The notes beneath the pieces are model-generated. The model saw nothing but the letters and a program-made list of their open reading frames with translations. It was not told the DNA's origin and did not search any database. Positions 14,031 through 25,844 of a DNA stretch of 64,000 nucleotides are shown here, one piece after another (within the stretch, counting starts at the first letter, position 1; each line of letters begins with the position of its first letter). This DNA comes from Nitratiruptor tergarcus DSM 16512 (GTDB lineage: Bacteria; Campylobacterota; Campylobacteria; Campylobacterales; Nitratiruptoraceae). A program made the translations under genes and the position numbers. Location: assembly GCF_027946175.1 (NCBI RefSeq), contig NZ_AP026671.1:1426001-1490000 (forward strand), in the 5' to 3' direction.

Positions 14031-14265
14031 AAGCGCATCAAATCTGCGTTGCATATTAAATTGAATCAAAAAGATAGTCAATATATAAAATATGTCTCTT
14101 TCCCACACACTATATCACTTACCATAATGCTTATTCTGATGGGAATAGTAAAATTAAATTATTATCATAACTTTCCAATTACAATAGCCAAAATAATTTA
14201 ATTCTAATTTAAACTATTACAATATAGAATGATTAATAGAGTTAAATTCATATAAAGGATTGGCC
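14031..14265 (+). promoter_or_regulatory. Upstream region of the 1056-residue secreted protein
   Basis: Non-coding AT-rich stretch of about 235 bases between the thiG relic and the secreted protein gene. AAAGGA at 14254-14259 is the ribosome-binding site for the ATG at 14266. TACAATATAGAAT near 14218-14230 could include a -10 element, but no box is certain. No hairpin of note was seen. Confidence 0.4.
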
Positions 14266-17200
14266 ATGATCCGTTTCGTCTTTCTTTTCCTCCTTGGTTT
14301 TGGTTATATATTGGCATCTTCTCTTCCTCCTTATGTAGAAGGATTGGGCACTTATCTGCTTTCAAAAGAGAAATGGAAGATCTATGGAACTTTTTATCAG
14401 TACGATTTTGAACAAAATGGCTCAGATTACAATGATTGGCTCTATATATCCGATCAAGGAAGTGCATTTAGGCTTTTAGGCATCACTCCTACTGATGACA
14501 ATCCTTTTGGTTGGAAGAGATTAAATAAAGCTCCTTCCCAACTTCCAGAAATTGCAGGATACTTCATATTCATCCAATATGATGGCGATAGTGAAACAAG
14601 ATTTTCATGGGTCTATCTTTCACAAAACTCACAGTCTGTATATAAACTCATGGGGGCAGATCCCAATACCCACTATTTTCAATATCTAGATATCGACAAC
14701 GATGGCTCTCCAGATAGATTACCCTATATCTGGTTTACTATCAACGATGACAATACTGCTACATTCCATTGCTCAATAGTTCCTGGAACAATCTGTCCCT
14801 ACTCAAGCAGTAGTTCGTCAGCTCCATCTTCCTCTTCGACCTCAATTCCTACTTCAAGTTCAAGTTCTTGTGCAAGCGATTCTTGCAACCTCGATTGTGC
14901 GATTGGTTCCCATTCCAGTGGAGCAGCCAGCTCTGTACCAGCATCTCGTAAAATTGGAAGACTCGATACACCATTTCAATGGTATAACGCACAAGTGAAA
15001 ATCTACGAAATCTCTTCCACAGGTTCTTTAAATTTACGCAAAACTACTCATACCTATCATCATGTTGGAATATCCGGATTTATTTTTGACTTTTGTGACG
15101 GAGCTGAATGCAGTATGTATCATAACAATAGCTACTATCTCGTAGAGGTCAATAAAGGATGTGATTTCGATCCTAATGGTAATGGACAACTCGAACAGTT
15201 CGGCAATAAAAATAAAGGGGTTTTGCGACTCATTGTCAAAGGAGATGAAATTTCTCATAGACCAGTGGTCTCATTAATCAGTGAAATTGCTTATGAAAAT
15301 CTTGCCAGTTATATTAAATATCGCTTCCATCCTCTTGGTTTTCAAGAACAACTTCGTACTGTAGCAAAGAGTCTTTTTACTCATGATATCACAGGCGATA
15401 GTAATATTGATGAGAAAGATATAGCGTTTTACCAAGATCTTCAAAACAAAGGAGCGGTAACTCCAACTATAGCACATGATTTGACACATCTTTATGTTGG
15501 AATGAGGGATGGTAAATATCCTTCTATGATACTTAACTCCACTTTTGATACTGAATATGTCAATATACCACTGTATGGCAATGCCGTTTGTGTTCATGGA
15601 AACAGAGCATATATAGGTAACAACAATAAACTTATAGAGTTGGATATTTCTGATCCTACTCACATTACAAAAGTGCGTGAGAGAATATTGCCATCATCAC
15701 ATAATATAAATGCCATTATTGTATACAGTTCACAAAAATTGGCAGTAGCAACATCTCATGGATTGTATTTTGTCAATACTTCAAACCTCTCTTACGGAAG
15801 AGTAGCTCCAATATACACAAATTTCATAGATTTGGCAAAAGATAGTCGCAATAACATCTGGTTGATAGATAGAACAAAATTTTACAAATATGATGCTTCT
15901 CAAAATAAAATTTTACAAAGTACGATTCCTTTGGATTTTGCAAACGATATAAAAATAGTAGACAAAAATGGTGTCACGTTCGCAATCATTGCAAATGGAA
16001 CCGAAGGTGTCAAAATCATTAATCTCTATCCTCGCATCACTCCAACGCATCAACAAAAATTTATTTTCGATATTGACACCCCAGGTCATGCAAATGCTGT
16101 AGATGTCAAAGGTAACAACATCTATGTCGCAGATGGACAAAATGGAATCGTCGTTATAGATTTTCAATCGAGATCTATTGTAGGACATGCAAACACTTTT
16201 GATTATACTTGCGATATAACAATAGATGGAAGTTACGCTTATGTTGCGGATTATGCAAGTGGATTAATAATGTTTGATCTCTCCACTCCTACTCATCCTG
16301 CCATGAGTGGATACATTGATATTCTCTATAATGCCTGTAAAGTTACCAAACTTTTTAAAAATGGCAAAAAATTGGCCTTTGTTTATAGAGATGAAGGTAC
16401 ACAAAGAGGTATCAATATTATTGATGTGTCGAATCCTTACTACAGGGACATTACGCTCTCTGGTGTGGTATCACGCATAACAGAAAAGGGATCAACCATT
16501 AAATCTATCGCCAAAAGAGGAAGTATCCTTTATGCTCTTAGTGAAGGCAAACTATTTATCTACTCTATCGCTCCAAATAAGGTTTTCTTGAATAAACTCA
16601 CAGAATTTATCATTAATCAATCTCCAGCTGATTGGACAGATATTGCTCTTTCCAATCATCTTAACCATCTCTATATCAGTAGCAATAAAAAAGGGCTTAT
16701 AGAAGTTGATATTACAAATCCTGTGCAACCTCAATCGGTAGGAATTTATCCAGTCCAAAGCACATATACTGATGCAACGCAACTCATTCTCAATAGCGAT
16801 AGTTCAAAAGCCTTTTTAGCAGATTTTAGCAAAGTCCACATTCTTAGATTATGGTCAACACCTGCCTATCTTGAAGAGCATCTTCTAAATGTGCCAGGTA
16901 CCATTAACTATATTGCAATTTCAGAGGATGGAACAAAACTTTTTGTCACATATCAAACTTTTGCGACATATCAAAGTCCTCCAGTGTATAAAACGAACAT
17001 TTACGATATCACATCCAATAACACCTTAAGTCCTTCATTCATCGGTACCATTACTTACAATCAAAATGAATATGTGTATGGGGCCATCCAATTCCATGAT
17101 GCTTCCCATCTTTTAACCTTCTCCACATGGATGAAATATTATGATATTACAAATCTCAATGCTCCAAGATTAATTGAATCCTCTTCTGCATATCCTACAG

Positions 17201-17436
17201 TAGTCTTGCATATTGCTGGCAATGATTATGGCTATCGGATATATGGCATAACAAAAGGATATGGTTTAGATGTTTTTGATAGGACAAAGTATAAAGGCTG
17301 CTTCAATACTTTTGGAACAACAGATTTTAAAGGAGGAAGAAAGGCTGTAAGAAATGGCAATATATTTTATATTCCTGATGGAAGAATGGGAACAAATATC
17401 ATAGATGTAAATCTATTTGCACCACATGATCAATAA
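14266..17436 (+). CDS. Large secreted beta-propeller (LVIVD-type repeat) protein
   Basis: 1056 residues; the ATG at 14266 is preferred over the TTG at 14260 because AAAGGA then sits 6 bases upstream. A signal peptide (MIRFVFLFLLGFGYILASS) is followed by two copies of a module of about 45-55 residues around DWLYISD and SWVYLSQ...YKLMGAD (residues about 31-150), then a Ser-rich linker (about 180-225), an EF-hand/dockerin-like DSNIDEKD, and many LVIVD-like blades such as NIYVADGQNGIVVIDF and YAYVADYASGLIMFDL. Probably exported or on the cell surface; function unknown. It is related to the protein at 35656-37167 and sits between a thiG relic and intact thiG. Confidence 0.85.
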   Translation: MIRFVFLFLLGFGYILASSLPPYVEGLGTYLLSKEKWKIYGTFYQYDFEQNGSDYNDWLYISDQGSAFRLLGITPTDDNPFGWKRLNKAPSQLPEIAGYFIFIQYDGDSETRFSWVYLSQNSQSVYKLMGADPNTHYFQYLDIDNDGSPDRLPYIWFTINDDNTATFHCSIVPGTICPYSSSSSSAPSSSSTSIPTSSSSSCASDSCNLDCAIGSHSSGAASSVPASRKIGRLDTPFQWYNAQVKIYEISSTGSLNLRKTTHTYHHVGISGFIFDFCDGAECSMYHNNSYYLVEVNKGCDFDPNGNGQLEQFGNKNKGVLRLIVKGDEISHRPVVSLISEIAYENLASYIKYRFHPLGFQEQLRTVAKSLFTHDITGDSNIDEKDIAFYQDLQNKGAVTPTIAHDLTHLYVGMRDGKYPSMILNSTFDTEYVNIPLYGNAVCVHGNRAYIGNNNKLIELDISDPTHITKVRERILPSSHNINAIIVYSSQKLAVATSHGLYFVNTSNLSYGRVAPIYTNFIDLAKDSRNNIWLIDRTKFYKYDASQNKILQSTIPLDFANDIKIVDKNGVTFAIIANGTEGVKIINLYPRITPTHQQKFIFDIDTPGHANAVDVKGNNIYVADGQNGIVVIDFQSRSIVGHANTFDYTCDITIDGSYAYVADYASGLIMFDLSTPTHPAMSGYIDILYNACKVTKLFKNGKKLAFVYRDEGTQRGINIIDVSNPYYRDITLSGVVSRITEKGSTIKSIAKRGSILYALSEGKLFIYSIAPNKVFLNKLTEFIINQSPADWTDIALSNHLNHLYISSNKKGLIEVDITNPVQPQSVGIYPVQSTYTDATQLILNSDSSKAFLADFSKVHILRLWSTPAYLEEHLLNVPGTINYIAISEDGTKLFVTYQTFATYQSPPVYKTNIYDITSNNTLSPSFIGTITYNQNEYVYGAIQFHDASHLLTFSTWMKYYDITNLNAPRLIESSSAYPTVVLHIAGNDYGYRIYGITKGYGLDVFDRTKYKGCFNTFGTTDFKGGRKAVRNGNIFYIPDGRMGTNIIDVNLFAPHDQ

Positions 17437-18313: not shown

Positions 18314-19060
18314 CTAATATTTGTAAAAAACAAAAATATGCTCATGCATAATAAGTAAAAAATTATATTCTTGACTTCTTTTTTTCCAAAATCCAGTAGC
18401 TTTACAGTTATGTTGATGTTTAATAATATCTTCTTTTAACAAAAACCCTACTTTTAAAAATCTCTCCATAACTTTATAAGCTAAAGGTTGATATATTTTG
18501 TTTCTTCTTGTATCTCCTATTAAAATAGCACAATATTTATCTTTTTTTAATACTCTATAAAACTCTTTTGCAATAATTTCTATCTCATCACAAAATTTAT
18601 CTAAATCTTTTATATGAGACAAATCACCACTAATATTATCAGAGTATTTAATAATATTTGCATATGGAGGATGCGTAAGAATAAAATCTATACTTTCACC
18701 ATTTATGAAAGATAAATTGCGAGCATCATTTTTAAAAATTTCAATTTTGGGATTATATGCAGATTCAAAATTTAATGCTCCTTTCGTTAACTCAATTGCA
18801 TTTTCATTTATATCACATCCAATTAAATTTCTATTTAATAATTTACACTCTATTGCGGTTGTCCCTCCGCCAATCATCGGATCTAAAAGTAAATCTCCCT
18901 CTTTTGAATATCTTAAAATGAGATTTCTTGCTACTTCTGGTGCCCAGTTCCCTCTATATTTTGCATTATGTGTTGCCCAACTACCCCTTTTTGGAAAAGA
19001 CCAAACAGTTGTGCATTCAAGTTCAAAATTTGTTGGTTGAAAAGCTTTTATTTTTTGCAT
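18314..19060 (-). CDS. DNA methyltransferase (N6-adenine or N4-cytosine type)
   Basis: 248-residue SAM-dependent DNA amino-methyltransferase. The SAM site LLLDPMIGGGTTAIE is near residue 60 and the catalytic motif IV, THPPY (a TSPPY-like form), is near residue 130; the order is motif I then IV with little room for a target-recognition domain. GTGFWKKR-type end residues (KATGFWKKRSQEY) are common in such enzymes. It is the last of three AT-rich minus-strand genes that look like a restriction-modification unit. Target sequence cannot be inferred. Confidence 0.85.
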   Translation of the reverse strand: MQKIKAFQPTNFELECTTVWSFPKRGSWATHNAKYRGNWAPEVARNLILRYSKEGDLLLDPMIGGGTTAIECKLLNRNLIGCDINENAIELTKGALNFESAYNPKIEIFKNDARNLSFINGESIDFILTHPPYANIIKYSDNISGDLSHIKDLDKFCDEIEIIAKEFYRVLKKDKYCAILIGDTRRNKIYQPLAYKVMERFLKVGFLLKEDIIKHQHNCKATGFWKKRSQEYNFLLIMHEHIFVFYKY

Positions 19061-19118
19061 ACATTTTTACTTCCAAATCTTAATACTAACTCTGGTATTT
19101 ATAAGTAAATTATATTAT

Positions 19119-19646
19119 TTAAGGAATACCACCCATTAACATATCTCTTCCAGAATAATTCCAATATCTTATATCTTGCTCAATAAAAAACCATTTAAGA
19201 CAATGAAGAATTAAATCCACATCATATCCCACTCGAAAATCAAATTTTCCAAAATCTATATTTTCAACTTCTATTTTACATTCAAATATTTTGACAATCT
19301 GTTCTTTAAATAAATTATAAAGTTCTGGATTACTTTCTTTTTTTCTTTGTAAATCCTCAATGACATCATCATGCTTTGGATAATCCCTATATTGTCCTGA
19401 AGGATTAAAATTAGTATTTGTTACTGTTATTAAAAAATCAAAACCATTTTTTAAATTAGCTGGTCTACGCAATATTACTTCATTTCCATTTTGTAGTTTG
19501 GCAACTCTATATTTATACCTACTTGCTTTTTTCCCACTCCCCGTTCCGGGCTCTTCTTCCATAAATTTCTTAATTACCCTTGCCCTCACCTCATTTCTAG
19601 TGCCTATATTGGAAAAGTAATTAAGACAATCAATTATTTTTTCCAT
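19119..19646 (-). CDS. Unknown protein between two methyltransferases; candidate restriction endonuclease
   Basis: 175 residues, no family recognised. Sequence points: GTGSGKKASRYKYRVAKL, a basic region VILRRPANLKNGFDFLI, a possible acidic/Lys patch IFECKIEVENIDF, and an aromatic C-terminus DIRYWNYSGRDML. Its start lies 17 bases inside the end of the upstream adenine methylase gene, implying coupled translation. Being enclosed by two DNA methyltransferase genes makes a restriction endonuclease the simplest guess, but no PD-(D/E)xK, HNH or GIY-YIG motif is convincing. Base composition matches its two neighbours. Confidence 0.5.
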   Translation of the reverse strand: MEKIIDCLNYFSNIGTRNEVRARVIKKFMEEEPGTGSGKKASRYKYRVAKLQNGNEVILRRPANLKNGFDFLITVTNTNFNPSGQYRDYPKHDDVIEDLQRKKESNPELYNLFKEQIVKIFECKIEVENIDFGKFDFRVGYDVDLILHCLKWFFIEQDIRYWNYSGRDMLMGGIP

Positions 19647-20520
19647 TTTTTCCTCCTATTTCATAATTCCTTATCACTACCTCACTTATCTTCCCTCTTC
19701 CCTCTTTTTTGCTATTGATAAATCTATGCATATACACTATATCAATTCTATATTCTTTATATAAATCTTTAATAAATTTTGTATCAGAGTTACTCTCCAT
19801 TACAAAACAGCCTCTTTTATCTAACTCTTCGTACACATTAAAAAGTCTTCTTTGCTCATCTTCCAAAAACGCTAAATCAGTATATGAGGTAAACTTGGAA
19901 GTCTCACTGAGTGGATAGTAGGGAGGATCGAAATAGATAAAATCCTCTTTTTGAACATATTGCAAAACCTCACTAAAATCTGCAGCTTCAATAACTGCTC
20001 CTTGCAAAGCTTTGGAGGCGTTTACTATGAGATCACTATCATATATTTTTGGATTTTTGTATCTGCCTATAGGAACGTTAAAATGCCCCTTCTTATTTAC
20101 TCTATAGAGCCCATTGAAGCAGGTTTTATTAAGATAAATAAATCTTGCAGCTCGTGTAATTGGATCAAGTTCTTTAAAATCCTCTTTCCTATCTAATTCC
20201 CTTATCTTATAATAAAACTCTTTTGAGTGGTTTTCTTGAAACTCTTTTAACTTCTCTAAAAGCTCATCGGGCTTATTTTGCACAATCTTATATGTATTTA
20301 TAAGCTCTTCATTCCTATCAAAAAGATAAACTTTTTTGTTTTGTAACATTCCTAAATTAAATAGCTCAAAAAAGAGCGCTCCGCCACCTACAAAGGGCTC
20401 AAAGTAGTTATTAAATTTCCTTGGAATAAGTGGTAGAAGTTGCGTTAATAAACCTCTTTTTCCTCCAACCCACTTTACGAATGGAGATGCTACACTCTTT
20501 TTTTCTACACAATCAACCAT
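19630..20520 (-). CDS. Dam-family DNA adenine methylase (D12 class)
   Basis: 296-residue N6-adenine methyltransferase of the Dam/D12 class. Motif X/I region FVKWVGGKRGLL and YFEPFVGGGALFFELF bind SAM; the catalytic DPPY is in FIYFDPPYYPLSETSKF. NKTCFNGLYRVNKKGHFNVP is the usual central Dam signature. It is first in the unit with the unknown 175-residue protein and a second methyltransferase. A DpnII-like or similar type II system with two methylases is possible. The AT-rich composition suggests acquisition by transfer. Confidence 0.93.
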   Translation of the reverse strand: MVDCVEKKSVASPFVKWVGGKRGLLTQLLPLIPRKFNNYFEPFVGGGALFFELFNLGMLQNKKVYLFDRNEELINTYKIVQNKPDELLEKLKEFQENHSKEFYYKIRELDRKEDFKELDPITRAARFIYLNKTCFNGLYRVNKKGHFNVPIGRYKNPKIYDSDLIVNASKALQGAVIEAADFSEVLQYVQKEDFIYFDPPYYPLSETSKFTSYTDLAFLEDEQRRLFNVYEELDKRGCFVMESNSDTKFIKDLYKEYRIDIVYMHRFINSKKEGRGKISEVVIRNYEIGGKNGKNN

Positions 20521-20639: not shown

Positions 20640-23600
20640 ATGAACGAGCAACTTTTAGGTGAATTTCTTCTTCTTTTAGCACTTCTTTTTGGCCTGACCT
20701 ACTTTTTGGCAGGATTTTTTGAAAAACTCAAAATCCCTGGAATTTTGGCTGCCCTTTTTGTAGGTATGGGGATCCACTATACACCTATTGGTTCCATACT
20801 GCAATCTGGACTCAATGGTAACATCTTTACTGTACTTGCTGATCTTGGTGTGCTCTTTTTGCTCTTTTTCATAGGCCTACAGATCGATATGAAGGAGATG
20901 AAGAGTCAAAGTAGTGACATTATCCTGGCTACAGTGCTCAATACTCTCTTTCCATTCTTGATGGGCGTAGCTGTCATGCTCTATCTTGACTATGGTTGGC
21001 TCATCGCTTTTGTCATAGGCCTTACTCGTATGCCAACAGCCGAAGCTGTCATCGTACCAATTTTAGATGAATTTAATATTATTCGTACAAAAGTAGGTAA
21101 CTATATTGTCGGTGCTGGGGTTCTTGATGATGTCATAGAGGTATTTCTCGTAGCATTTGTCTCTGTCTGGATAGGAATGAAGAGTGGAGTAGTTCAGAGT
21201 GAGTCGCAAGAGATTACTGATATTTTAATAAATGCAACCATCTTCATCGCAGCAGCCTTTATTGCTAGAAAATTTATTTTAGTACCTCTATCTAAATGGA
21301 CAAAAACCTCTGTCGTTAATCTCATAGTATTAATGATTCTCACTCTTTTTATCTTTGGGGGATTTGCTGAATATAGTGATCTTGGTCTTGTAGTAGGTGC
21401 AATCGTAGCTGGTATTATCATCCGTCCTGTTTTTAATAAAGCAGGTGAAATTGGCGAAAATGCAACAAAAGCGGTCAAAGCCGTAAGCTACGGCTTTTTT
21501 GGAATCATCTTTTTCTTATGGATAGGGATGAGCGTTGACTTAGAGGGTCTCATTAAAGCCCCAGAACTTGCTATTTTGCTCTTTTTGGCTGCATTTGTAG
21601 GCAAACTTATTGGTATCCTCCTCATGGTACCTATGAAAAAGCTTACACTCAAAGAGGCTATTACGATAGGCATAGGACTCAATGCAAGACTTACTACTGA
21701 AATTATTGTCGCCAAACTGCTTTTGGATGCAAAAATCATCGATACCGAGCTTTTCACAGCTTTAGTAGCCGCTTCAAGTGTCTCTACAATTATCGTACCC
21801 CTTACATTCTCTTTGCTTGCTTCCAGATGGAAAGATGAGTTTGTATCTGCACCTGCTATTACACCAAAAGAGCATGCAGCCATCAAAGAAGCTCCAATCC
21901 CTTGGCATGCAAAAAAGATTGAAGAAATCATACAGCTTCTACGCACCGATCCTAAAAAGGGGCTTAATAATGAAGAGGTTCAAAAACGATTACAAATCTA
22001 CGGTCTCAATAAGATAGTTTCAACTAAAAAAATCCCTTGGTATGTTATTTTGTTTCGGCAGTTTACTGATGTGCTTATCCTTATCCTTCTTGTAGCTGCT
22101 GGAATTAGTTTCGCCATAGGTGAAGTGGGTGATGGCTGGACTATTATGGCTATTGTTATCCTCAACGGCATCTTGGGTTTTATTCAAGAGTTCAAAGCTG
22201 AAAAAGCTATCGAAGCACTACAAAAAATGCTCTCACCCCACTGCAAAGTTATCCGTGACGGTATGCAAAAAGAGATAGAGACCAAATACCTTGTGCCTGG
22301 TGATATTGTCATACTTCAAATAGGCGACAAAGTCCCGGCAGATCTTCGTCTTATTGAATCTGTCAATCTTAAAATAGACGAATCTGCACTCACAGGTGAA
22401 TCGGTACCGGTCAACAAATGGATAGATCCCGTTCCTCAACAAGCCCCTTTAGCAGAGCGAAAAGATATGGCCTATATGGGAACGAATGTTACCAATGGAT
22501 ATGGTAAAGGAGTCGTTGTAGCAACGGGTATGGCTACAGAATTTGGCAAAATTGCCAAACTCACAAGTGAAGTGGAGCAAGCTCCTACACCACTACAACG
22601 AAAACTAGCAGTTCTAGGCAAAAAACTTGGCATCATCTCCATTGCAATTTCCGTTCTTGTCGCCATAATTGGATATCTTTTTGGAAAAGATCTTTTTGAG
22701 ATGTTCATGACAGGCATCTCTTTGGCTGTAGCCGTAGTGCCCGAGGGCTTGCCTGCTGTTGTCACCATTACACTGGCTCTTGGAGTCAAAGCAATGGTCA
22801 AACGCAATGCACTGCTAAGAAGACTCCAAGCAGCAGAAAATCTTGGAAGCGCAAATGTCATCTGTACCGATAAAACCGGTACTCTCACCAAAAATCAGAT
22901 GACAGTCAAAAAAATATGGCTTTTTAGCGAAGAGCTCGAAGCTACTGGCAGTGGCTACGATCCAGCTGGACATTTTGAGAAAAATGGCAAAAAAGTAGAC
23001 TATAAACATGATAAAGCTCTTTTGAAACTGCTTCATACTGGACTTGTTTGTAATCACGCCTCACTTAAAAAAGATCAAAACGGATGGCATGCTATAGGAG
23101 ATCCTACAGAGGTTTCATTAATCGTTGCAGCGTATAAAGCATGGCTTGCACCAAAAGATGAAAAAATCATTAGTGAGTTTTCATTTAATAGCGAGCGAAA
23201 ACGAATGACGGTAATTGTCGAGGAGAATGGCAAGAGAGTTGCCTATATCAAAGGAGCTCCAGAAGTACTCTTGCAAAGAGCTGCATATTATGATGATGGC
23301 TCTGGCATCAAGCCGCTTGATGCAAAAATGAAGAAAAAATTTGAGCAAGCTTACATAGAATATGCAAAAAGTGGGCTTCGCACTCTTGCACTTGGATATA
23401 GAATTGTTTCAGATTCTATAAAACTTGATCCAGATGATGTGGAAAAAGATATCGTACTTCTTGGTATTGTAGGCATCATCGATCCTCCTCGTCCTGAAGT
23501 TCCAGAAGCTATCAAAACGGCCCAAGAAGCAGGCATCAAAGTGATTATGATTACAGGAGATGCCCCTTTAACAGCTCTAGCTATTGCAAAAGAGATAGGA

Positions 23601-24575
23601 CTCAAAGCCTCTCGTGCTATCACTGGTAATGAATTAGCTAGTATGGATGACGAGGCTTTACATAAAGCCATCAAAGAGGATGTGATTTTTGCTCGCGTAG
23701 CACCACAAGACAAACTTCGCATCGTCGATATCTTGCAAAAAGAGGGACTCATTGTCGCAATGACAGGAGATGGAGTCAATGACGCTCCAGCACTCAAAAA
23801 AGCAGATGTAGGCATTGCCATGGGGCTTCGAGGAACCGATGTGGCAAAAGGAGCGGCAGATATTATCTTGCTCGATGACAATTTTGCATCCATCATCAAA
23901 GCTGTCAAAGAGGGAAGGCGCCAATATGACAATATCAAAAAATTTGTCACATATCTGCTCTCTTCCAATACCGGTGAAGTGATTGCCATCTTTGTCAATA
24001 TTTTACTGGGAGGCCCACTCATCTTGCTTCCTGTACAGATACTTTGGATGAATCTTGTGACTGACGGAATGACTGCAGTGGCTTTGGGTGTAGAGCCTGC
24101 AGAAGCCGGCATCATGAAAAGACCGCCACAGGCTGTGAATGCTCCATTTTTGCAGCTGCGTGGTATTATTATGATTATTTTGCTAGGTTCCTATATCGGT
24201 TTTGGTACGCTTTGGCTCTTCCACCACTATCTCTCTTTAGGCCTGCCACAAAGCCAAGCTATACCTCTAGCGCAAACTGTCGCCTTTACAGGTATTATCA
24301 TTTTAGAAAAGATGAATGTCTTCAACTACCGAAGTCTCCATGCGCCTATGCCAGTTATTGGCTTTTTTTCCAATCCTTGGTTACTCCTTGCATGGACTCT
24401 TACAGTTGGAGCACAAGTAGCTGCAGTCTATGTACCATTTTTGCAAAACGCACTTCATACAGTGCCACTACAACTCAAAGATTGGTTGCTTATCTTTGAA
24501 GTTGCTGTCCCAATTTTTATTATTGTAGAATTGTATAAATGGTTTGAATGGTGGGTACTTAAAAAAAGGAGTTAA
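20640..24575 (+). CDS. Fusion of CPA2 cation/proton antiporter and Ca2+-type P-type ATPase
   Basis: 1311-residue membrane protein. Residues 1-400 are a Kef/NapA-like CPA2 antiporter (about 12 membrane segments; paired aspartates GVLDDVIEV, 163-164). Residues 427-1311 are a complete P2A-type ATPase: N-terminal EEIIQLLRTDPKKGL, actuator TGES (585-588), PEGLP (701-705), phosphorylation site DKTGTLT (744-750), TGDGVND (1042-1048). M5 SSNTGEV and M6 NLVTDG match the calcium sites of SERCA. The joint is a single open frame with no stop or overlap. It may couple ATP-driven cation export with Na+ or K+/H+ exchange. The next gene follows with zero gap. Confidence 0.92.
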   Translation: MNEQLLGEFLLLLALLFGLTYFLAGFFEKLKIPGILAALFVGMGIHYTPIGSILQSGLNGNIFTVLADLGVLFLLFFIGLQIDMKEMKSQSSDIILATVLNTLFPFLMGVAVMLYLDYGWLIAFVIGLTRMPTAEAVIVPILDEFNIIRTKVGNYIVGAGVLDDVIEVFLVAFVSVWIGMKSGVVQSESQEITDILINATIFIAAAFIARKFILVPLSKWTKTSVVNLIVLMILTLFIFGGFAEYSDLGLVVGAIVAGIIIRPVFNKAGEIGENATKAVKAVSYGFFGIIFFLWIGMSVDLEGLIKAPELAILLFLAAFVGKLIGILLMVPMKKLTLKEAITIGIGLNARLTTEIIVAKLLLDAKIIDTELFTALVAASSVSTIIVPLTFSLLASRWKDEFVSAPAITPKEHAAIKEAPIPWHAKKIEEIIQLLRTDPKKGLNNEEVQKRLQIYGLNKIVSTKKIPWYVILFRQFTDVLILILLVAAGISFAIGEVGDGWTIMAIVILNGILGFIQEFKAEKAIEALQKMLSPHCKVIRDGMQKEIETKYLVPGDIVILQIGDKVPADLRLIESVNLKIDESALTGESVPVNKWIDPVPQQAPLAERKDMAYMGTNVTNGYGKGVVVATGMATEFGKIAKLTSEVEQAPTPLQRKLAVLGKKLGIISIAISVLVAIIGYLFGKDLFEMFMTGISLAVAVVPEGLPAVVTITLALGVKAMVKRNALLRRLQAAENLGSANVICTDKTGTLTKNQMTVKKIWLFSEELEATGSGYDPAGHFEKNGKKVDYKHDKALLKLLHTGLVCNHASLKKDQNGWHAIGDPTEVSLIVAAYKAWLAPKDEKIISEFSFNSERKRMTVIVEENGKRVAYIKGAPEVLLQRAAYYDDGSGIKPLDAKMKKKFEQAYIEYAKSGLRTLALGYRIVSDSIKLDPDDVEKDIVLLGIVGIIDPPRPEVPEAIKTAQEAGIKVIMITGDAPLTALAIAKEIGLKASRAITGNELASMDDEALHKAIKEDVIFARVAPQDKLRIVDILQKEGLIVAMTGDGVNDAPALKKADVGIAMGLRGTDVAKGAADIILLDDNFASIIKAVKEGRRQYDNIKKFVTYLLSSNTGEVIAIFVNILLGGPLILLPVQILWMNLVTDGMTAVALGVEPAEAGIMKRPPQAVNAPFLQLRGIIMIILLGSYIGFGTLWLFHHYLSLGLPQSQAIPLAQTVAFTGIIILEKMNVFNYRSLHAPMPVIGFFSNPWLLLAWTLTVGAQVAAVYVPFLQNALHTVPLQLKDWLLIFEVAVPIFIIVELYKWFEWWVLKKRS

Positions 24576-25844
24576 ATGGATTATCAACTGCTAAAACTCC
24601 TCTTCTATGCACTTGCAATAGGTATCATGATAGGATTGCAACGCTCACTTACCTATATTCTTAAAGATGAACAAGTGTTCATGGGTACACGTACCTTTGC
24701 CCTCATCTCATTAGCTGGCTTTTTAAGTGGATGGCTGGAGACGAAGGTATCAGGATTTATTTTCGCTACTTTCATAGCTATAACTCTTTTCATTTCACTT
24801 ACTTATATTTTTAAAGTCCGCACTCTCAAAAAAATAGGCATTACAACACAAATTGCAGCTCTCATTACTTTTATCTTAGGACTTATGGTCTGGTATAGAC
24901 TGGAAAATTATGCTCTTTTTTTAACTGTCATCATAGTAGTACTGCTTGAAATCAAACCAAAACTGCAACAAATCGAAAGGAATATTTCAGCAACCGATAT
25001 CAATGCAGTCGTACTGCTACTTGTGATGACCTTTGTCATTCTCCCCCTACTGCCAAATAAGATGATAGGCCCTTATCACCTTTTTAATCCTTATAAAACG
25101 TGGCTTATGGCTATTATCATCGCTGGACTTAGTTTTGTAGGATATGTAGCTATTAAAACATTGGGACACAGACATGGTGTACTCATTACAGGAGCTGCAG
25201 GAGGTCTTATCTCCTCTACTGCTGTAACAATTACTCTTAGTGATATCTATCCAAAAAATAGTCTCCTTCTTGGCATCTATACTGCTGGTATTGGTATTTC
25301 GTGGACATTTATGTTTATCCGTGTCTTCATTGAAACACTCATTATTCATCCAAAACTAGCAATTGTTGTAGCAATTCCATACCTTATAACTGCATTGGCA
25401 GGAGCTTTGTATGTTTACAGACTCTATCGTAAAGCTCCTGTAACAAATATAGAGTTCCACAACCCATCTTTAGAAAAAAACCCATTACAACTCTCTGAAG
25501 CTATCAAATTTGGTATTTTGTTTGGTATCATCTATGGAGCTATAGCATTCGTTGAGACAAAATATGGAGATATCGGTGTTTATGTAGTCTCTATAATCTC
25601 AGGAATTACTGATGTAGATGCAATCACACTGTCTTTGAGTGAAATGGCAAAAGAGCAGCGCTTGAGTCTTGAAGCTTCACTTACTGGAATAGTTCTTGCT
25701 AGCTACACCAATACACTTGTCAAACTGGCTTTTGCCTATTGGCTTGGAGGCAAAGAGCTTGGCTGGAGTGTGACAAAATTCACACTCCTTGTGACAGTGA
25801 CTCTTTTTGGAGGAATATATCTAGCAGATCTGCTATTACTTTAG
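24576..25844 (+). CDS. MgtC/DUF4010-type membrane protein
   Basis: 422-residue polytopic membrane protein. The N-terminal IGIMIGLQRSLTY and GTRTFALISLAG match the MgtC/SapB domain, and the C-terminal half (GISWTFMFIRVFIE, SGITDVDAITLSLSEMA) matches DUF4010. Function unproven; MgtC proteins affect Mg2+ homeostasis and growth. The ATG follows the TAA of the antiporter-ATPase directly with AAAAAGGAG inside that gene, so the two are co-translated and probably act together in ion handling. Its 3' end overlaps convergent purN by 65 bases. Confidence 0.85.
   Translation: MDYQLLKLLFYALAIGIMIGLQRSLTYILKDEQVFMGTRTFALISLAGFLSGWLETKVSGFIFATFIAITLFISLTYIFKVRTLKKIGITTQIAALITFILGLMVWYRLENYALFLTVIIVVLLEIKPKLQQIERNISATDINAVVLLLVMTFVILPLLPNKMIGPYHLFNPYKTWLMAIIIAGLSFVGYVAIKTLGHRHGVLITGAAGGLISSTAVTITLSDIYPKNSLLLGIYTAGIGISWTFMFIRVFIETLIIHPKLAIVVAIPYLITALAGALYVYRLYRKAPVTNIEFHNPSLEKNPLQLSEAIKFGILFGIIYGAIAFVETKYGDIGVYVVSIISGITDVDAITLSLSEMAKEQRLSLEASLTGIVLASYTNTLVKLAFAYWLGGKELGWSVTKFTLLVTVTLFGGIYLADLLLL

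Follow-up and report, generated by a model that had tools for sequence, protein, structure and literature searches.

We describe a single open reading frame (ORF) that joins a complete CPA2 antiporter to a complete P2A-type ATPase in Nitratiruptor tergarcus DSM 16512, a vent-type member of the Campylobacterota. It occupies positions 20640 to 24575 (+ strand) of the window, the 64,000-nucleotide stretch analyzed here (contig NZ_AP026671.1, positions 1,426,001 to 1,490,000). The ORF list, Pfam, and the set of 26 full-length fusions to which it belongs agree on its extent: it begins with ATG, has no internal stop codon, and specifies 1,311 residues plus the stop. The fusion is a genuine conserved family within its order. 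On balance, we regard it as a probable dual cation-extrusion unit whose co-translated halves would be driven by ATP for Ca2+ and by protons for Na+ or another cation.

Domain organization and conservation

Pfam placed Na_H_Exchanger at residues 19 to 393 (8e-45) and, in the pump half, Cation_ATPase_N (422 to 490), E1-E2_ATPase (529 to 722), Cation_ATPase (803 to 883), Hydrolase (930 to 1056), and Cation_ATPase_C (1126 to 1302), all above their curated cutoffs. An earlier note on this DNA had proposed that a full-length CPA2 antiporter and a full-length Ca2+-type P-type ATPase are made as one polypeptide. The ORF and the Pfam domains bear this out, and the residues that the note had named (DD at 163 and 164, TGES at 585 to 588, D744 in CTDKTG, and TGDGVND at 1042 to 1048) were all correctly placed. 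By Pfam and fold, the NapA-like antiporter half spans residues 1 to 395 (positions 20640 to 21824, + strand); by Pfam and sequence and fold matches, the SERCA-like ATPase half spans residues 422 to 1311 (21903 to 24572, + strand). Between them, the alignment of fusions and AlphaFold define a linker of residues 396 to 421 (21825 to 21902, + strand), which varies in length and has no invariant residue among the 26 fusions. Its residues 405 to 420 have an AlphaFold confidence score (pLDDT) below 50. The two halves were folded separately for the structure models.

Homologues were sought in up to 399 genomes of the order to which N. tergarcus belongs. The 26 full-length, uninterrupted fusions, that of the window included, fall in five families (f1, f4, f6, f7, and f17), and the others are 59 to 94% identical to the window protein over its whole length. 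Across the 26, mean agreement was 0.78 in the exchanger half (111 invariant positions) and 0.81 in the pump half past its N-terminal domain (308 invariant positions); the pump's N-terminal segment (residues 422 to 490) was less conserved (0.69). The ratio of nonsynonymous to synonymous substitution rates (dN/dS; NG86 method) was 0.04 to 0.12 in each half for the five genome pairs with estimable dS, a sixth pair being saturated. The earlier note had called such a fusion uncommon. This holds outside the group, as neither the 247 genomes covered from another phylum (that of genome G534) nor the 5,000 best-scoring plasmid records yielded a fusion, but not inside the order, where the fusion is a conserved family. 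Coverage beyond the window's own phylum was limited to that phylum and plasmids, and fusions may occur elsewhere. We found no description of a CPA2 and P-type ATPase fusion in the open literature; subscription papers and TCDB were not covered, so an earlier mention is possible. The fusion proteins are presumably listed in public databases under ATPase names. The parts are known, and the architecture is apparently new.

The pump half keeps the SERCA Ca2+-site positions

Sequence comparison and Foldseek both bring the pump half nearest to SERCA and SPCA1, with a TM score of 0.90 to SERCA E2 structures, and the best PDB matches of its transmembrane region from M5 onwards are all SERCA. Motif alignment located the TGES dephosphorylation loop (residues 585 to 588; positions 22392 to 22403), the phosphorylated Asp744 of the CTDKTG motif (22869 to 22871), and the P-domain motif TGDGVND (residues 1042 to 1048; 23763 to 23783), all on the + strand. 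These motifs (with D744 read as the start of DKTGT) and PEGLP (residues 701 to 705) are invariant in the 25 aligned fusions.

All ten of the SERCA Ca2+ positions compared (V304, A305, I307, E309, N768, E771, N796, T799, D800, and E908) are kept, with I307 present as Val; those in M4 were located through the PEGLP motif, from knowledge of the family. Aligned side chains include Glu702 (E309 of site II; positions 22743 to 22745), Asn1110 and Glu1113 (N768 and E771; 23967 to 23978), Asn1138 and Thr1141-Asp1142 (N796, T799, and D800; 24051 to 24065), and Glu1223 (E908; 24306 to 24308), again on the + strand. Apart from Val or Ile at I307, none of the ten varies among the 16 fusions aligned over this region or in four ATPases that pair with an unfused exchanger, and other related stand-alone ATPases often have Ala or Asn at D800 or Gln or Ala at E908. 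The Ca2+-type assignment made earlier is strengthened by the retention of the positions of both site I and site II. Because all of them are kept, we predict that two Ca2+ ions are moved per ATP.

The complete P2A core, with its P, A, N, and M domains, is shared with SERCA1a, SERCA2, SPCA1/PMR1, and Listeria LMCA1, and the fusion differs from SERCA and other P2A pumps in having a whole antiporter at its N terminus. LMCA1 transports a single Ca2+, its site I being replaced by an Arg (PMC11977196). The fusion keeps both Ca2+ sites, unlike LMCA1 and, according to our alignment, unlike SPCA1. No other clear P2A-type pump was found in the 1.94-Mb genome of the window; the protein that the pump half matches next best is, by NCBIfam, a proton pump of the P3A type (935 bits versus a cutoff of 615), and further matches were weaker and were not classified.

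The exchanger half is a NapA-like CPA2 antiporter with a distinctive motif

The exchanger model has helices broken near residues 130 to 134 and 347 to 351, as in the NhaA fold, and this fold with its two broken helices, together with the Na_H_Exchanger domain, identifies a CPA2 protein. Thermus NapA is the best sequence match among solved structures and also the nearest by Foldseek, with KefC second. Asp163-Asp164 (positions 21126 to 21131, + strand; CPA motif positions 6 and 7) align with the Asp pair of NapA, and Lys322 (21603 to 21605, + strand; position 8) aligns with NapA K305. All three residues are invariant in the 26 fusions, which thus carry the Asp-Asp-Lys set that marks electrogenic CPA2 antiporters in the survey by Masrati et al., with Asp6 and Lys8 as the signature (PMC6181914). 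CPA1 proteins are marked by the pair of Glu at motif position 5 and Arg at position 8 (PMC6181914). This pair is absent here, as Lys322 occupies position 8 and 25 of the 26 fusions have Ala at position 5 (residue 159).

The stretch that sets this half apart is PTAE (residues 132 to 135; positions 21033 to 21044, + strand), which lies in the unwound transmembrane helix 4 (TM4) and, from the alignment and the motif definition in PMC6181914, covers motif positions 1 to 4. All 26 fusions have it without variation, and so do all 9 of the separate group members examined. The NapA-like paralogue in the genome of the window has A-T-S-I in its place. Thermus thermophilus NapA likewise differs in its A-T-S-V stretch, while sharing the Asp pair on TM5 and the Lys on TM10, and the C terminus of the fusion's exchanger runs on into the ATPase. 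Kef-type K+/H+ antiporters have the CPA2 fold in common with the fusion and gave the second-best structural match, but a Kef-type assignment was rejected, given PTAE rather than LSST, DD rather than QD, and no RCK domain in Pfam. We know of no assayed member of the PTAE exchanger group.

A probable dual cation-extrusion unit

In the reading that we favor, the C-terminal SERCA-like pump would use ATP to move two Ca2+ ions (and possibly also Mn2+) out of the cytoplasm while bringing protons in, and the N-terminal NapA-like antiporter, driven by the proton motive force, would take in two protons for each cation (most likely Na+) that it expels. The flexible linker would fix equal amounts and proximity of the two halves. 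The C terminus of the exchanger and the N terminus of the pump are both cytosolic in their families, and a join between them is therefore consistent with their topology. As CPA2 antiporters usually dimerize, each exchanger dimer would carry two pumps. The genes would first have been translationally coupled neighbors and would later have fused. We infer the ions, stoichiometry, direction, topology, dimer, and order from pair to fusion from the families involved.

Several findings weigh against this reading. In the survey cited above, motif position 4 is nonpolar in antiporters of the Na+ type and Ser or Thr in those of the K+ type (PMC6181914). Glu135 fits neither pattern, so the Na+-selective signature is lacking and the ion of the exchanger is uncertain. 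The pump half narrowly misses the NCBIfam equivalog cutoffs for SERCA (TIGR01116, 670.9 versus 703.4) and PMR1 (TIGR01522, 771.1 versus 798.3); among the NCBIfam Ca2+-ATPase equivalogs, the PMCA type alone passes its cutoff. A curated SERCA or PMR1 name is thus not earned, and the proposed Ca2+ mechanism would stand on the residues. Naming the pump PMR1/SPCA was rejected on the missed cutoff and because SPCA1 lacks the site I residues in our alignment. Finally, the pump half is missing from G001, a genome belonging to the same genus.

The Glu at position 4 raises the alternative that both halves export Ca2+, with the exchanger as a low-affinity, high-capacity Ca2+/H+ antiporter beside the high-affinity ATP pump. 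In its favor, the unwound TM4 has this extra invariant acidic residue near the Asp pair, both in the 26 fusions and in every unfused partner examined. Against it, NapA, an Na+/H+ antiporter, and KefC, a K+/H+ exchanger, are the closest solved structures, and the electrogenic Asp-Asp-Lys set is typical of Na+ antiporters. We consider this alternative unlikely. Another improbable arrangement is a single coupled machine in which exchanger flux regulates or energetically assists the Ca2+ pump, or the reverse, with the MgtC/DUF4010 protein encoded next to the fusion (see below) as a third subunit.

A tighter form of coupling, in which the exchanger takes Na+ in and H+ out and so recycles the pump's protons by local passing within one Ca2+/Na+ machine, would agree with the counter-transport of protons by SERCA-type pumps (PMC11977196) and with the 1:1 ratio that the fusion imposes. 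However, going by its family, an electrogenic NapA-like exchanger should bring protons into a respiring cell. Both halves working in their usual direction would therefore do so, and recycling would need the exchanger to operate in reverse. The variable length and sequence of the linker suggest no tight gearing, and exchanger genes without a pump exist, one of which was tested and stays constrained. Such recycling is thus quite unlikely, and co-location of two extrusion systems fits better than an exchanger that returns the pump's protons. The earlier note had offered both ideas, Ca2+ export coupled to the return of protons or sodium and plain co-location.

It is very unlikely that the CPA2 half has ceased to transport and serves the Ca2+ pump as a pH or ion sensor or as a dimerization scaffold. 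CPA2 proteins do dimerize and often carry pH sensors, but the catalytic positions are all invariant in the 26 fusions, dN/dS is about as low as in the pump half, and the exchanger persists without the pump, beside MgtC, in G001, G060, G143, and G163.

A sequencing or assembly error that merged two adjacent genes has next to no probability, for although adjacent and overlapping two-gene versions occur in relatives, the joint is read straight through in 26 genomes, several of them assembled in one or two contigs. This disposes of the error at positions 21850 to 21920 that the earlier note had named as a way in which its claim could fail. Separate translation products, the other way, are unlikely on sequence evidence. 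Residues 370 to 469 of the fusion contain no ATG and no GTG, and the sole start-like codon there, TTG at codon 392, lies within the last exchanger helix; an internal start yielding a free ATPase is therefore unlikely. An apparent split in G319 (L046) is a frameshift within the ATPase N terminus of a draft genome and not a split at the joint.

Unfused, split, and pump-less relatives

In G610 and G724, which belong to another phylum, exchanger and pump are separate neighboring genes whose ends overlap or touch (ATGA and TAATG), and in G534, of that phylum too, a Usp gene (L020, 1799 to 2203, + strand) lies between the two. The exchanger exceeded the threshold in 3 of the 247 genomes of G534's phylum; the pump adjoins it in two, and the third (G683) has it near a contig end. 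G724 was found through its pump, its paired exchanger being cut by a contig end. Within the fused group, G139 has separate exchanger and pump genes that overlap by about 11 nucleotides.

Trees built on the pump half place G610 and G724 outside the two fused clades and G534 apparently beside them, and the pump of G139 is nested inside a fused clade (100/100). Because of this nesting, a single clade of fused ATPases alone was rejected by the approximately unbiased test (p-AU = 1e-48). G139 may carry a re-split gene, or its neighbors may have fused independently; the fusion may have arisen more than once.

G001 has kept the exchanger, with a dN/dS of about 0.06 against its closest fused relatives, and has lost the pump. 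Between its exchanger ORF and its MgtC gene (L015, - strand) lies a stretch resembling the last codons of the pump, GTTGTAGAATTGTATAAATGG, which suggests that an ancestral fusion lost its pump part by internal deletion. The fusion of G010 is in decay, with the exchanger part in pieces and in-frame stops, and the adjacent MgtC/DUF4010 gene is still open (L010).

Some candidates proved to be other combinations. An apparent fusion in G718 (frame of 1,293, with one TGA) was rejected as an OAD_beta gene beside an ATPase rather than a CPA2 protein: at L100, 4687 to 8565 (- strand), the gene for the beta subunit of a Na+-transporting oxaloacetate decarboxylase is followed, after a few bases, by one for a P2A ATPase. 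G718 thus has another sodium transporter adjoining a Ca2+-type pump. Frames of about 1,060 to 1,118 residues in G534's phylum were also rejected as fusions. The two examined (L107, 5186 to 8452, and L108, 4592 to 7855, both + strand) encode stand-alone P2A ATPases of about 1,088 residues with an N-terminal PTS_EIIA_2 domain, and several more frames of this size there may have the same architecture. These EIIA-ATPases likewise have an N-terminal addition to a P2A ATPase, but the added domain is regulatory and not a second transporter.

Gene neighborhood

A membrane protein with MgtC and DUF4010 domains (Pfam) is encoded at positions 24576 to 25844 (+ strand), its ATG immediately following the stop codon of the fusion. 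Such a gene is directly downstream in 24 of the 26 fusions, mostly with a gap of less than 70 bases and once of 287; in G269 it lies about 1.8 kb from the fusion. It also follows the exchanger in the pump-less G001, G060, G143, and G163, though not in G252, and so within Campylobacterota its association seems steadier with the exchanger than with the pump. Around the unfused pairs of the other phylum, no such gene was found. In Salmonella mgtCBR, an MgtC protein is similarly encoded beside a P-type ATPase (the P3B ATPase MgtB); this is an analogy only, as here MgtC carries DUF4010 and the pump is a P2A Ca2+-type ATPase fused to an antiporter.

Upstream, thiG is separated from the fusion by a possible restriction-modification island of two methyltransferase-like genes plus a small one (18314 to 20520, - strand). 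It was not found at the same spot in G001, G010, G011, or G007, where thiG directly adjoins. Farther upstream, a 1,058-residue ORF with a TTG start (14260 to 17436, + strand) has a serine-rich stretch and repeat-like motifs and resembles a secreted repeat protein.

Implications

Because nature provides the fused version as well as paired, split, and pump-less ones, the role of physical tethering in ion homeostasis is directly testable. The fusion also supplies a pump of bacterial origin in which the SERCA two-site signature is complete, and it would tie the apparently unstudied PTAE subgroup of CPA2 exchangers and the DUF4010 domain to calcium handling.

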